Origin: a virus
DNA: 36,484 nucleotides
Virus record (IMG/VR): IMGVR_UViG_3300022707_000257
Span: 1-36,484 of that record
Strand: one strand, 5' to 3'
Below are positions 15,916 through 20,083 of this stretch, one piece after another. Position numbers and translations under genes: made by a program. Positions within the stretch are counted from its first letter, which is position 1. Each line of letters begins with the position of its first letter. The notes under the pieces were generated by a model. The model searched no databases. It was not told the DNA's origin and saw nothing but the letters and a program-made list of their open reading frames with translations.

Positions 15916-18087
15916 ATGGAACATAAAAACGAAAAAGATATCCATCTTAAAGCAATGAAACGGTTTGGTCGAGTCGAAGATAAAGAACGTGATCAACGGT
16001 TGTTATCCGTGGAGGATACTAGATTTGCTCAGGCTGAGGATGGTCAATGGGATGAGGACGCTACAAGAAAACGCGCCAATAGACCACGGTATACCATTAA
16101 CCGGGTTGCTGGTGCGATAGATCAACTAGATGGTGATCAGCGCCAAAACAGCACCAACATTAAGATCCGCCCAGTTTCGGGAGGTTCTACTGAATCTGTA
16201 GCTAAAACAATGACCGGAATTATCAGAAATATCGAAGGAGCAAGCAAAGCCAAAAGAATATACACCAATGCAATTAATGAGGTATACAACGGCGGTTATG
16301 GTGGATGGCGCATATTAACGGTATTCTCGGACGATGATCCATTTGTTCAGGATATTAAGATTAAATGGATTAGAGGTGCTGCAACCTCTTTATGGTTTGA
16401 TCCAAGCGCAGAGGAATACACCAAAAGCGATGCTATGTGGGCATTTGTTACATTTGACATGTCCAGGGAAGAAAGGGAAGAAAAGTGGCCTAATAAACCT
16501 ATCGTAAACTGGAGTCAAGACCAACGCTCGCGCCGTGGTTGTAGCACATGGTTTAAGGATGATGTCGTGCGAGTCGCTGAGTACTGGGAAAAAATAGAGG
16601 TAACTAAGAATATAGCTTTAATGACTGATGGCCGTATCCTTGACATAGACGAAGAAAAACCAGTTCTTGATGAATTAGCCGAAAAAGGCATCAAAATAGT
16701 TAAGCAAAGAGAGGTTAAATCCTTCAAAGTTCAAATGACAAAGATGGACGGCGGTGGAATACTTGAAGACCCGAAACCTTGGGCCGGTAAATTCATTCCA
16801 TTGATCCCGGTTTATGGGCATATTAATTATATTGAGGGTAAAGAATTTATACGTGGTGTGGTTAGATTCGCCAAAGATCCAAGTAGAATTTACAACTACA
16901 CAGTCAGCACAACAGTAGAAACAACGGCGCTAACTCCCAAAGATCCGATATGGCTCACAAGTAAACAGTCAGAAGGGCAGATATCGGCGCTAGAAACTTT
17001 TAATACTAAAAACTCTCCGTTCCTTTTTTACACACCGGATCCTAACGCTCCGGGGCCACCACAAAGGGGCGGAGCGCCAGCAGTTCAAAGCGCACTTATT
17101 CAGCAGACACAGCAAGCCAGCATGGATATATACCATGTCACAGGAATGCAGCCTCCATCATTGGGAGCCAATCCAGAGCTTAAATCAGGCAAGGCAATAC
17201 AGGCACAAGAGCGACTGGGTGACAGGGGTTCGTATATATATACTGACAACCTCGAAGCCTCACAAAATTACACTGGTGAAATACTTATTGATTTGATACC
17301 AAGGATTTATGACACGGCACGCCAAGTTAGGATTATGCAGCAGGATGGTGAAACCGAATTAGTAGATATCAACACAGTTAATGAGGAAATAACCGACAGG
17401 CAGACTGGCGAGACTGTTTTAGTTAACGATTTGAAGGTTGGTAAATATGGAGTAGTAACAGAAACAGGACCAGCGTTCGCAACTATACGCCAAGAATCAG
17501 CACAACAAATCATCGACTTAATATCGACATCGCCACAGTTTGAAGCGCTGGCAATGGATTTGGTGGCTAAAGACTTGCCAATACTCGAATCGAAAGAGCT
17601 AGTGAAGCGAGTTAGAAAGCAGATGATTGCACAGGGCATCGTTGAGCCAACCGAGGACGAAATTAAAGAACTCGGACTTGACCAACCTCAACAGCCTGAC
17701 CCACAACAAACGGCCATCACTGAGAACATCCAAATTCAGACAGAGAAGCTAATCTCTGATATCGAAAATCAGGATGCTAAGACACTCGAAACGACGATTA
17801 AAACACAACAAGCAACACTTGATAGTTATAAGACATTAATCGACGCTTATAAGGCACAGATTGAGGCTGGCATCCCGTTCACTCAAGATGACCATGACAT
17901 CAGAGTTAAGCAGCAAGATATCATCATCGAGGGCCAGCAAGCTTTAGATGAAGGCCCGAACCGAGAGCAGACGGCTAGCATCATTGAAGATGCGGCAGTA
18001 CAGCAAGCGGGACAACTAGACGGCGCTCCACGGCTTACAGTTGAGCAGCCTTCAACCTCAATTGGCCAAGATGATTTAAACGTATAA
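15916..18087 (+). CDS. Portal protein (P22 gp1-like)
   Basis: 723 residues; P22 portal has 725. The N-terminus with AMKRFGRVEDKERDQRL and the RPRYTINRVAGAIDQLDGDQRQN segment is typical of P22-type portals. The centre contains crown/wing-type sequences including GYGGWRILT and VEYWEKIEV-like patterns. The C-terminal 120 residues are Gln/Glu-rich and helical (TEKLISDIENQDAKTLETTI), the long barrel that reaches into the P22 capsid. Twelve copies would form the packaging channel. The stop codon lies inside the left direct repeat at 18082. Confidence 0.9.
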   Translation: MEHKNEKDIHLKAMKRFGRVEDKERDQRLLSVEDTRFAQAEDGQWDEDATRKRANRPRYTINRVAGAIDQLDGDQRQNSTNIKIRPVSGGSTESVAKTMTGIIRNIEGASKAKRIYTNAINEVYNGGYGGWRILTVFSDDDPFVQDIKIKWIRGAATSLWFDPSAEEYTKSDAMWAFVTFDMSREEREEKWPNKPIVNWSQDQRSRRGCSTWFKDDVVRVAEYWEKIEVTKNIALMTDGRILDIDEEKPVLDELAEKGIKIVKQREVKSFKVQMTKMDGGGILEDPKPWAGKFIPLIPVYGHINYIEGKEFIRGVVRFAKDPSRIYNYTVSTTVETTALTPKDPIWLTSKQSEGQISALETFNTKNSPFLFYTPDPNAPGPPQRGGAPAVQSALIQQTQQASMDIYHVTGMQPPSLGANPELKSGKAIQAQERLGDRGSYIYTDNLEASQNYTGEILIDLIPRIYDTARQVRIMQQDGETELVDINTVNEEITDRQTGETVLVNDLKVGKYGVVTETGPAFATIRQESAQQIIDLISTSPQFEALAMDLVAKDLPILESKELVKRVRKQMIAQGIVEPTEDEIKELGLDQPQQPDPQQTAITENIQIQTEKLISDIENQDAKTLETTIKTQQATLDSYKTLIDAYKAQIEAGIPFTQDDHDIRVKQQDIIIEGQQALDEGPNREQTASIIEDAAVQQAGQLDGAPRLTVEQPSTSIGQDDLNV

Positions 18088-18101
18088 TTAACCAAAGGCA
18101 T
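18082..18101 (+). repeat. Left direct repeat of the portal-scaffold insert
   Basis: GTATAATTAACCAAAGGCAT. It matches 19245-19265 except for one extra T in the latter. It includes the stop codon of the portal gene. Confidence 0.8.
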
Positions 18102-18148
18102 TTGACACGTGTCTTTTATTTTGCCACACTATTAAAAATAATTTTAAT
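18102..18148 (+). promoter_or_regulatory. Possible cassette promoter with palindromic operator
   Basis: TTGACA (18102-18107) is a perfect -35, but no good -10 lies 16-19 bases on. An alternative pair is TTGCCA (18121) with TTTAAT (18143), spacer 16. The perfect 10-bp palindrome GACACGTGTC (18104-18113) overlaps the -35 and could be an operator. It lies directly after the left repeat and before the cassette's first gene. Confidence 0.4.
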
Positions 18149-18158
18149 TAAGGTGATA

Positions 18159-18275
18159 ATGATGAATAAAAGTGACTGGACTGCGTTTAAGGTAGGCGGT
18201 GTTTTAGGGTTAACCTTTGGTTTAGGGTTTCACTTAACAGAATTTATTGCGTATTTATTGAGGTTCTTGGGATGA
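18159..18275 (+). CDS. Small membrane protein (cassette gene 1)
   Basis: 38 residues from ATG 18159 (37 from ATG 18162), preceded by AAGGTG. Glycine-rich hydrophobic helix (VGGVLGLTFGLGF) and a second hydrophobic stretch (EFIAYLLRFLG). Its stop overlaps the next start (ATGA). Function unknown. Confidence 0.5.
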   Translation: MMNKSDWTAFKVGGVLGLTFGLGFHLTEFIAYLLRFLG

Positions 18276-18595
18276 ATAACTGCGAAAAACTACTAAGGGC
18301 CTTTATAGAGGCTCAGGGTTATGAGATTCAAGAGATTAAGGAGCCTGTGCTTCTTTCAGTTGTGCATAATGTGCCTGTATTTAATATTATTGATTACAAA
18401 GTAACTAAGCAAGCAAGGATAATGCAGCATCCTGTAGAGTATTCTTCATTCGACGGTGATTTGTTTTCTCTTGGTTGTCAGGTTGCTAATGATGACATAA
18501 AAGATAGGTTAAAGCTTCTTGGGTTCGAATTAGATAAAAGCCAAATGCATGACGTAATGGAAACTATAATATTTCACATAGCGAGGAATAAATGA
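18272..18595 (+). CDS. Hypothetical protein (cassette gene 2)
   Basis: 107 residues. The N-terminus NNCEKLLRAFIEAQGYEIQEI looks like a helical start; the middle is beta-rich (LLSVVHNVPVFNIIDYKV); the C-terminus is helical. Soluble. Coupled to genes on both sides. No recognised family; a small phage protein of the kind usually found in early regions. Confidence 0.5.
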   Translation: MNNCEKLLRAFIEAQGYEIQEIKEPVLLSVVHNVPVFNIIDYKVTKQARIMQHPVEYSSFDGDLFSLGCQVANDDIKDRLKLLGFELDKSQMHDVMETIIFHIARNK

Positions 18596-18786
18596 AGATT
18601 TATAAAAGCTCAGACCTAACACACAAGCGCGCAGAGGTATTGAAAGAGGCCAAACTTAATGGCGTTATTATTCAGCAATTAGAAACTAATGGTCAAGTGC
18701 GTTGTGAGTTTTTACTCATCGCTAATGAGCCGCTAATTAAGTCCGGCCATTCAATTCAAATAGTTCGGGATATGACCGAAGCTTAA
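18592..18786 (+). CDS. Hypothetical protein (cassette gene 3)
   Basis: 64 residues, ATGA overlap with gene 2. Basic-hydrophobic helix (THKRAEVLKEAKLNG), followed by beta-like VIIQQLETNGQVRCEFLLI. No known motif. Function unknown. Confidence 0.5.
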   Translation: MKIYKSSDLTHKRAEVLKEAKLNGVIIQQLETNGQVRCEFLLIANEPLIKSGHSIQIVRDMTEA

Positions 18787-18810
18787 TATCTTTTTAATTG
18801 GAGAATGATT

Positions 18811-18990
18811 ATGACCGACGAGCAGATAATACAACTAGCTGAACACTTCGGTGTTCACATGCGAACAAGGCCTAGCGGTTTTGTAGATAACGGTGACGGG
18901 TCCATGAGTTTTAGGAAAGTTGAGCTTCACTACGCCGGGGAACAGATTATTGAATTGGTTAGGCTGATGGAGGGCGTTAAAAATGACTAA
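18811..18990 (+). CDS. Hypothetical protein (cassette gene 4)
   Basis: 59 residues from ATG 18811, six bases after GGAGA; ATG 18805 would overlap that site. Contains DEQIIQLAEHFGVH and a C-terminal EQIIELVRLMEGV helix. It overlaps the next ORF by eight bases. Function unknown. Confidence 0.5.
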   Translation: MTDEQIIQLAEHFGVHMRTRPSGFVDNGDGSMSFRKVELHYAGEQIIELVRLMEGVKND

Positions 18991-19159
18991 CAACTTTTTA
19001 GACGAAAAAGGCAGAAAGAAAGTGTTCTCAAAGATTGCCGACGATCTTAATGAGGCAATTCAAGATCACTTAAAAGAAACCAGTGAAGACAGTGTGCAGT
19101 TTTCTATTGGCATGTTTGACTTTGACATTAAAGCTAAAAAGGAGATAGAAAATGACTAA
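18983..19159 (+). CDS. Hypothetical protein (cassette gene 5)
   Basis: 58 residues. GGAGGGCG within the previous gene supplies the ribosome site. Acidic with two helices (KVFSKIADDLNEAIQDHLKE) and a final basic-acidic tail. It is the last gene before the terminator at 19181. Function unknown. Confidence 0.5.
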   Translation: MTNNFLDEKGRKKVFSKIADDLNEAIQDHLKETSEDSVQFSIGMFDFDIKAKKEIEND

Positions 19160-19180
19160 CGAATAGAAACTACCAAAACC

Positions 19181-19203
19181 AGCCGCCATTCGAGCGGCTT
19201 TTT
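19181..19203 (+). terminator. Intrinsic terminator ending the cassette
   Basis: AGCCGC (19181-19186), seven-base loop, GCGGCT (19194-19199), T tract 19199-19203. It lies between the cassette genes and the scaffold promoter, so it insulates the two. Confidence 0.75.
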
Positions 19204-19222
19204 CATGCCTAGATAATCATAT

Positions 19223-19251
19223 TTGTCAAACTCACCAATAATTAGTATAAT
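19223..19251 (+). promoter_or_regulatory. Sigma70-type promoter for scaffold and coat genes
   Basis: TTGTCA (19223-19228), 17-base spacer, TATAAT (19246-19251): one mismatch in twelve. The -10 lies inside the right direct repeat and the -35 just outside it. Transcription would start near 19258. Confidence 0.75.
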
Positions 19252-19265
19252 TAACCAAATGGCAT
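19245..19265 (+). repeat. Right direct repeat of the portal-scaffold insert
   Basis: GTATAATTAACCAAATGGCA followed by T, the partner of 18082-18101. It includes the -10 box of the scaffold promoter. Confidence 0.8.
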
Positions 19266-19266
19266 A

Positions 19267-19288
19267 CGCTCAGCCTTAATGAGCGGCT
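19267..19288 (+). promoter_or_regulatory. Hairpin, possible pseudoknot, in the scaffold 5' leader
   Basis: CGCTC (19267-19271) pairs with GAGCG (19281-19285) around a nine-base loop. AGCC in the loop (19272-19275) can pair with GGCT (19285-19288), giving an H-type pseudoknot or an alternative fold. The scaffold ribosome site AAGG lies 13 bases on. A translational control role is speculative. Confidence 0.35.
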
Positions 19289-19312
19289 AAAATTAACCGA
19301 AAGGTGTTACGC

Positions 19313-20083
19313 GTGACAGACCAAGCAGACCAAGAAAACCAAGCTGCACAGGTGGAACCTAGCTATAAAATCGAAGGCGATGATCAAGCTCAGAATTTAA
19401 CAGCAAGCGAAAACCAATCAGTCGACTCAGCAACGACTAACCAAGTTGATTCTAATAACGACCAATCTACCAGTGAACCTGCTGACGGGTTTCAAAAAAG
19501 AATCAACAAAGTAACAGCGGATAAATACGCAGAAAAGCGCAGAGCAGACGCTTTACAAGCTCAACTGGACAAGCTTAGTAAAATACCTAGCAATGAGCAG
19601 GTTAAAGCACCAGTACTTGATGACTTCGATTTTGATGATGATGCCTTTAATAAGGCGAATATTCAATATCATGTTCAACAAGAGCTATCAAAGCAAAACA
19701 CTCTGCAGAAGCAGTCAGACTCAGATGATAAATTACGCCAAGCTAGCCATGATTTCAATCAGAGAGTAAGCAAGTTTGGCAAGGAAGACTTTTTTGAAAA
19801 AGCAGGTTTAATACCTGATCTTCCTCCTGGCGTTGCTGATGCGTTAATGCAATCAGATATTGGGCTAGAGTTGATTTATCATCTTGCTGATCATCTAGAT
19901 CAGGCTGATGCTTTAGCTGGAATGACTCCAGCAGCTGCGATGATGGAACTAGGCAGAATGCACTCCACCATGACCGCCAACAAAAACATCGAACCTAGTG
20001 CAGCACCGGATCCTATACAGCCACTTTCCAGTGGTGGCGCGATGAGCGCAGAACGAGGGCCGGCCGGCGCAACATACGAATAA
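19313..20083 (+). CDS. Scaffold protein (P22 gp8 position)
   Basis: 256 residues from GTG 19313, eight bases after AAGG; the GTG at 19304 overlaps that site. The first 60 residues are polar, Gln/Asn/Asp-rich and disordered. A coiled coil with GFQKRINKVTADKYAEKRR follows and then a second helical region; the C-terminus is Ala/Met-rich. No catalytic motifs. Position between portal and coat is that of P22 scaffold (303 residues), which is also mostly helical and acidic. Identity rests on position and composition, not on a specific motif. Confidence 0.75.
   Translation: MTDQADQENQAAQVEPSYKIEGDDQAQNLTASENQSVDSATTNQVDSNNDQSTSEPADGFQKRINKVTADKYAEKRRADALQAQLDKLSKIPSNEQVKAPVLDDFDFDDDAFNKANIQYHVQQELSKQNTLQKQSDSDDKLRQASHDFNQRVSKFGKEDFFEKAGLIPDLPPGVADALMQSDIGLELIYHLADHLDQADALAGMTPAAAMMELGRMHSTMTANKNIEPSAAPDPIQPLSSGGAMSAERGPAGATYE

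Follow-up and report, generated by a model that had tools for sequence, protein, structure and literature searches.

A probable self-regulated accessory-gene cassette at the portal-scaffold junction of P22-like viruses

A variable gene block between the portal and scaffold genes

We analyzed the DNA of the IMG/VR virus record IMGVR_UViG_3300022707_000257 (positions 1-36,484; "the window" hereafter denotes this whole stretch), centering on a block of small genes that lies between its portal and scaffold genes. The identities of the portal, scaffold and coat genes are upheld by PHROG matches (E-values of 1e-126, 8e-37 and 1e-56, respectively). In P22 the portal-scaffold gap is 13 nucleotides, consistent with the original prediction that P22 has nothing at this junction. 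In the window, the five small coupled genes that had been predicted here are present as short open reading frames at 18159-19159, and the intrinsic terminator expected downstream of them was recovered as a hairpin at 19181-19199 followed by a T-run. The components of the block are:

18088..19222, + strand: accessory cassette, the likely insert, missing from the empty-site relatives L033, L055 and L013
18159..18275, + strand: g1, 38 residues, probable single-span membrane peptide; open reading frame with the Shine-Dalgarno sequence AAGGTG
18272..18595, + strand: g2, 107 residues, recurrent head and variable body; ATGA overlaps with g1 and g3
18592..18786, + strand: g3, 64 residues, Phd/YefM-like conserved head of 43 residues and exchangeable tail; proposed autorepressor
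18811..18990, + strand: g4, 59 residues (61 if started at 18805); open reading frame with a Shine-Dalgarno sequence
18983..19159, + strand: g5, 58 residues; open reading frame overlapping g4
19181..19203, + strand: intrinsic terminator closing the cassette; predicted fold of -10.1 kcal/mol, z -3.4

Searches of the five genes against PHROGs, Pfam, NCBIfam and PADLOC returned nothing convincing, and an Rfam search of the window returned no match. Comparative evidence comes from approximately 107 related loci fetched through portal and coat protein scans (loci are designated by L-numbers). The content of the junction differs widely among them: in many it spans only 30-150 nucleotides (for example, L033, L055, L005-L009 and L013), while in others (the window, L002-L004, L010, L011, L022, L023 and L025) it is filled, with 0.7-1.7 kb of small genes. 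At the empty sites of L033, L055 and L013 the sequence TTTGT(C/A)A, which is the -35 region of the scaffold promoter, immediately follows the portal stop and is succeeded by a -10-like box. From this we infer that the insert in the window spans approximately 18088-19222 and that the scaffold promoter is native to the site. The description of the block as moron-like, with a promoter and terminator of its own, thus fits what was found, as it is present in some relatives and absent from others at exactly the same junction.

Most of the filled junctions examined end in a terminator. That of the window is near-identical in L002, a locus with a portal 89% identical to that of the window; L002 also has a relative of g2 but differs in the rest of its cargo and lacks both the promoter element described below and g3. 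Judging from such comparisons, the content of the cassette turns over quickly. Furthermore, at the same junction the isolate Pseudoalteromonas phage H6/1 (L228, 4352-5041) carries four small genes on the opposite strand, with no hairpin promoter found there, indicating that the site accepts different kinds of cargo. An otherwise empty junction (L008, 8146-8290) retains a terminator-like hairpin, possibly the leftover of a lost cassette.

A hairpin promoter and the g3 gene

Upstream of g1 lie three elements, which together constitute the predicted control region of the cassette:

18094..18116, + strand: terminator-like hairpin AAAGGCAT[TTGACAC]GTGTCTTT with a T-rich tail, its loop being the -35 box (18102-18107)
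18125..18130, + strand: -10 of the cassette promoter; most relatives read TATATT and the window CACACT, which probably weakens it; located by alignment A5
18131..18148, + strand: palindrome ATTAAAA-ATAA-TTTTAAT spanning the expected start site, conserved in sequence and put forward as the g3 operator

A TTGACA element accompanied by a perfect palindrome had been noted on this side of the block, and both are indeed there (TTGACA at 18102-18107 and GACACGTGTC at 18104-18113). The palindrome does not hold up as a functional element: relatives preserve the hairpin and not GACACGTGTC, which is hence rejected as an operator and is better seen as a variant of the 8-bp hairpin. In relatives the element takes the form AAAGGCAT[TTGACAC]ATGCCTTT-TATTTTAC-TATATT, with the -35 box in the loop of the stem and 17 nucleotides ahead of the -10. 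Across 22 sequences all eight stem pairs vary on both sides, whereas the TTGACA of the loop is almost constant; 90.9% of the cells are paired as against at most 62% when the alignment is slid, and the covariation is 0.66 versus 0.22 in shuffles. The predicted fold of the window copy, with two G-U pairs, is -5.6 kcal/mol, and those of relatives range from -8 to -10. A covariance model of the hairpin matches the window at an E-value of 9e-12. Where a g3 locus extends far enough upstream, the model nearly always detects a single element in the genome, located ahead of g3; at E<0.01 it detects none in about 90 loci without g3 from the first portal/coat search, and none in 77 unrelated loci. A weak partial element (E ~1e-4) precedes a scaffold-like gene in L273/L274, which lack g3. 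As judged from sequence, the cassette thus has both a promoter, the -10 of which is weak in the window, and a terminator of its own.

The sole constant gene of cassettes of this type is g3. Its head, MKTYKSSDLTHKRAEVLKEAKANGVIIQQLETNGEVRxEF, was recovered in 37 contigs, followed in each case by one of a set of unrelated tails. Synonymous positions of the gene vary freely and conservation breaks off abruptly at codon 43, implying that the constraint acts on the g3 protein. An AlphaFold2 model built with 30 sequences (predicted local distance difference test score, pLDDT, of 75) displays a beta-alpha-beta-beta order, with the tail predicted at low confidence. Its leading matches in the PDB are all N-domains of Phd/YefM antitoxins, with Z scores of at most 5.0 and, in Foldseek, a best E-value of 0.086 with a probability of 0.92. 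A sister head type, MK(T/K)FNASDLSKKPSQVF, found via the promoter, matches the Phd/YefM family PF02604 at E-values of 0.007-0.011, its best score of 16.5 bits lying under the family cut-off of 29.8; the g3 of the window gave no PF02604 hit, and by sequence it had no match in the PDB or in phage and plasmid collections. These observations suggest that the g3 head is Phd/YefM-like, a match of a model not being proof of membership in the family.

An indirect indication of function comes from the association between the g3 head and the palindrome behind the -10. Loci with what we term type A heads have the palindrome AAACTAATTT (AAA-CTAA-TTT) with at most one mismatch in 24 of 25 cases, while all five loci with type B heads have CTGACTAATCAG (CTGA-CTAA-TCAG) with no mismatches, and a third head type (L289) is accompanied by a palindrome of its own, TTTAGA-CTTAA-TCTAAA. 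Type B cassettes share backbones with type A ones (L284 against L234, with portals 79% identical, and L288 against L242, at 81%), indicating that head and operator have been switched jointly at least twice, even though the genes between the operator and g3 differ. As head type and palindrome change together, we propose that g3 is probably the autorepressor of its own cassette promoter. The tail, by comparison, appears on more than one head: that of the window g3 (GHSIQIVRDMTEA) is found on type A heads (the window, L232 and L233) and on a type B head (L287). These paired changes of regulator head and operator amount to a directly testable repressor code.

Several observations weigh against the foregoing picture of an autoregulated cassette. 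The physical linkage of the operator and g3 means that co-inheritance may account for part of their correlation, and L260, the one type A locus that does not fit, combines a diverged head with the lack of a clear palindrome. g3 occurs without the promoter element in the L261/262/266 lineage and in L265. The Phd/YefM likeness rests on a Foldseek E-value of only 0.086 and a Pfam match under the cut-off. The degenerate -10 and the two G-U pairs of the hairpin imply that the window copy of the promoter may be weak. Finally, no relatives of g1, g4 and g5 were found among the fetched loci, so that there is no support for a function of these genes.

In L265 (start ~614) and L251 (start ~3832) we also observed chimeric small genes, in which either the g3 N-terminus (MKTYKSSD) or the head of g2 is joined to transmembrane segments, suggesting that recombination within conserved gene starts creates new proteins.

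Cargo, exchange and function of the cassette

The promoter DNA is 95% identical and the g3-head DNA 85% identical between phages whose portals share only 28% identity; by this comparison, cassettes move between phages with portals less than 30% identical. In two loci (L237 and L264) the cassette precedes an Sf6-like small terminase gene, with no P22-type head genes detectable within the fetched stretch. Just upstream of g3 lies a 16-member family that includes g2, which has a constant head (MNNxEKLLRAFIEAxGYE) and a variable body; it matched no database family and its AlphaFold2 model is of low confidence (pLDDT 63). The remaining cargo of relatives includes membrane peptides, a lipoprotein-like protein, a PagP-like protein, zinc ribbons and HNH endonucleases, and this cargo, the g2 body and the g3 tail are all shuffled among relatives. 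Searches of the cargo against Pfam, PHROGs and PADLOC, which did not extend to a dedicated anti-CRISPR (Acr) library, recovered no named defense or anti-defense family save a homing endonuclease model. By analogy with the systems compared below, we posit that the cargo is aimed against the host, its defenses or a competitor.

Based on the above, we consider it likely that the segment at 18088-19222 is an accessory-gene cassette that regulates itself and is exchanged horizontally. In function it would resemble a moron whose small genes act on the host, and its place of insertion is after the portal stop, ahead of the scaffold promoter. The left hairpin, as its shape and T-rich tail suggest, would stop stray transcripts that run in from the portal gene, and the -35 in its loop would serve transcription of the cassette. 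Dimers of g3 may then bind the start-site palindrome via the Phd/YefM-like head and shut the promoter once the product accumulates, and the closing terminator would insulate the scaffold and coat genes, which are served by their own native promoter. The cargo, perhaps including the g3 tail through binding of host toxins, would most likely counter host functions or defenses early in infection. More generally, the comparisons indicate that marine viruses of the P22 type bear a set of interchangeable small genes in the gap between two capsid genes, together with signals to switch it on and off and a gene that probably represses it. Both the promoter, which is conserved, and the head of g3 can serve as bait for dozens of small phage gene families that are likely to be host-directed.

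The original prediction, which saw a moron in this block, was right in outline. As in lambdoid morons, extra genes of patchy distribution lie among late genes with their own sigma-70-type promoter and terminator; unlike in those, multiple small genes that are shuffled are combined here with a constant gene resembling an autoregulator and a shared hairpin promoter, and an integrase is mostly not found. Service to a prophage, which had also been suggested, is not supported, since searches for a tyrosine integrase came back empty for the window, for the isolate H6/1 and for 15 of 16 further virus records, several of these records being fragments and serine recombinases not having been tested. The Aca proteins (anti-CRISPR-associated regulators) known to us are helix-turn-helix proteins. 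The cassette resembles acr-aca operons (e.g. acrIC7-acrIC6-aca10, PMC9410881) and the early anti-defense promoters of archaeal viruses (PMC11065993) in combining small variable cargo, one conserved palindrome-bearing promoter and a conserved small regulator gene. It differs from the acr-aca operons in that the regulator head is Phd/YefM-like, its C-terminus is variable, the -35 lies inside a terminator-like hairpin and none of the cargo was recognized as Acr in the Pfam, PHROGs and PADLOC searches. With the Phd/YefM antitoxins (P1 Phd, E. coli YefM; PF02604) it shares a palindromic putative operator at the promoter, a variable C-terminal region and, as the model suggests, the N-domain fold, and it departs from them in having no recognized toxin gene, a score under the Pfam cut-off and a multi-gene cargo setting.

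The cassettes may possibly represent a previously undescribed class of mobile counter-defense islands, mostly of integrase-less marine phages. We advance this tentatively; it would bring together a hairpin terminator-promoter with an operator, operator specificity set by the head, a swappable g3 tail that neutralizes different host toxins and an Aca-like bait with which new anti-defense genes could be sought, with the adjoining pseudoknot in the scaffold mRNA possibly being an autoregulation switch.

Of the alternatives, the one that fares best, though we hold it to be rather doubtful, casts g3 chiefly as a phage antitoxin that neutralizes host toxins through its tail while the head dimerizes and autoregulates, the other genes being extra counter-defense functions. 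The conserved head and the hypervariable, exchangeable tail with its low-confidence model are what such a protein might display, and there is a precedent in the virus-encoded inhibitors of the Phd-Doc immune system that are expressed under a conserved early promoter (PMC11065993). Against this, a toxin partner was not identified and the tails matched no family in the searches made. That the block is instead a defective or orphan toxin-antitoxin module, with g3 as a Phd/YefM-type antitoxin and g2 or g4 as the toxin, kept for stabilization or abortive infection, appears unlikely: the g3 fold and the operator logic are antitoxin-like and g2 overlaps g3, but the 59 cargo proteins searched yielded no toxin family (Pfam, PADLOC and PHROGs), the genes flanking g3 are not constant and its tails exchange independently of their neighbors. 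Proteins with constant N-termini and variable C-termini encoded beside the scaffold gene could also be late virion-associated proteins destined for packaging into the head, like the T4 internal proteins. We regard this as very unlikely given the host-type promoter of the cassette, the terminators at both of its ends, the two loci in which the same cassette lies upstream of a terminase gene and the DNA-binding-type fold predicted for the g3 head. Thus, an autoregulated cassette of exchangeable genes remains our preferred reading.

With respect to g5, the sequence AAAATGACTAAC occurs at its start (18980-18991) and again at its end (19149-19160), where the second copy opens a four-codon remnant (ATG ACT AAC GAA TAG) that looks like the trace of a gene start which was lost or duplicated. 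Among the cargo at the portal-scaffold junctions of L017 and L022 are HNH-type homing endonuclease-like proteins, which could drive the spread of the cassette.

The direct repeats and the scaffold leader

The edges of the cassette and the leader of the scaffold gene contain the following features:

18082..18101, + strand: left repeat copy, which combines the portal stop with the 5' edge of the promoter element of the cassette
19245..19265, + strand: right repeat copy, which combines the native scaffold -10 and start region with the strand that opens the leader pseudoknot
19223..19251, + strand: native scaffold promoter TTGTCA-17-TATAAT, 11/12 consensus, with a counterpart at empty sites
19261..19285, + strand: predicted H-type pseudoknot in the scaffold mRNA leader (S1 19261-19263/19273-19275; S2 19267-19272/19280-19285)
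19296..19305, + strand: small predicted ACC-GAAA-GGT hairpin beside the scaffold ribosome-binding site; ACC/GGT or TCC/GGA in relatives

The 20/21-bp direct repeats that had been reported at 18082-18101 and 19245-19265 are real. Their core, GTATAATTAACCAAA, occurs exactly twice in the window (18082-18096 and 19245-19259; 0.29 occurrences are expected with up to two mismatches), and with the flanking (T)GGCAT the copies extend to 20 and 21 nucleotides. The longest string common to both 110-nucleotide junction stretches is 15 nucleotides, compared with at most 12 in 100 shuffles; the repeat exceeds the usual background, though modestly. When the junction was aligned across relatives, empty and filled sites were recovered as anticipated, but not the flanking repeats: the left and right edges of eight other filled junctions share matches of no more than 6-9 nucleotides, which equals the shuffled-sequence background, and GTATAATTAACCAAA was consequently rejected as an insertion boundary. 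At the position of the left copy, L239, with a portal only 28% identical, has AACCAAAGGCATTTGACAC. The 15-mer gave at least 119 scattered single matches in public contigs, which are uninformative. The repeat does not represent a target-site duplication shared by these insertions; coincidence within this lineage, or local conversion between two A+T-rich promoter regions, accounts for it best. The proposal that the cassette entered through recombination at GTATAATTAACCAAA(T)GGCAT or through its duplication, with the scaffold promoter rebuilt from the repeat (-10) and the insert (-35), can draw on two real copies within a few bases of the insert edges, but is highly improbable, as the other filled junctions tested have no flanking repeat, empty sites already carry both the -35 and the -10, and the portal stop with the conserved 5' edge of the promoter accounts for the left copy; this part of the original prediction was mistaken. 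A literature search returned nothing on point for a portal-scaffold hotspot.

P22 has the same order of portal, scaffold and coat genes, but only 13 nucleotides and no leader at its gene 1-gene 8 junction, whereas here a dedicated promoter and a pseudoknot-bearing leader precede the scaffold gene, which starts with GTG at 19313. In 27 leaders aligned by sequence alone, 99.2% of the pseudoknot cells are paired, with 69 changed on both sides, and the covariation is 0.79 as against at most 0.16 when slid; these leaders were chosen since the pseudoknot could be drawn in them, which biases the pairing count in its favor. By a less biased count, the pseudoknot is present in its strict form in 46 of the 89 leaders that are distinct, compared with 1.6 in shuffles and 4 of 266 coding windows. 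The scaffolding protein of P22 limits its own synthesis. By analogy, we hypothesize that the leader pseudoknot might be a switch for scaffold autoregulation, a subject on which a literature search found nothing on point; with its shape conserved and its sequence not, it is a concrete candidate for the control of scaffold synthesis in this phage group. A fold program unable to draw pseudoknots gives S2 together with an alternative outer pairing.

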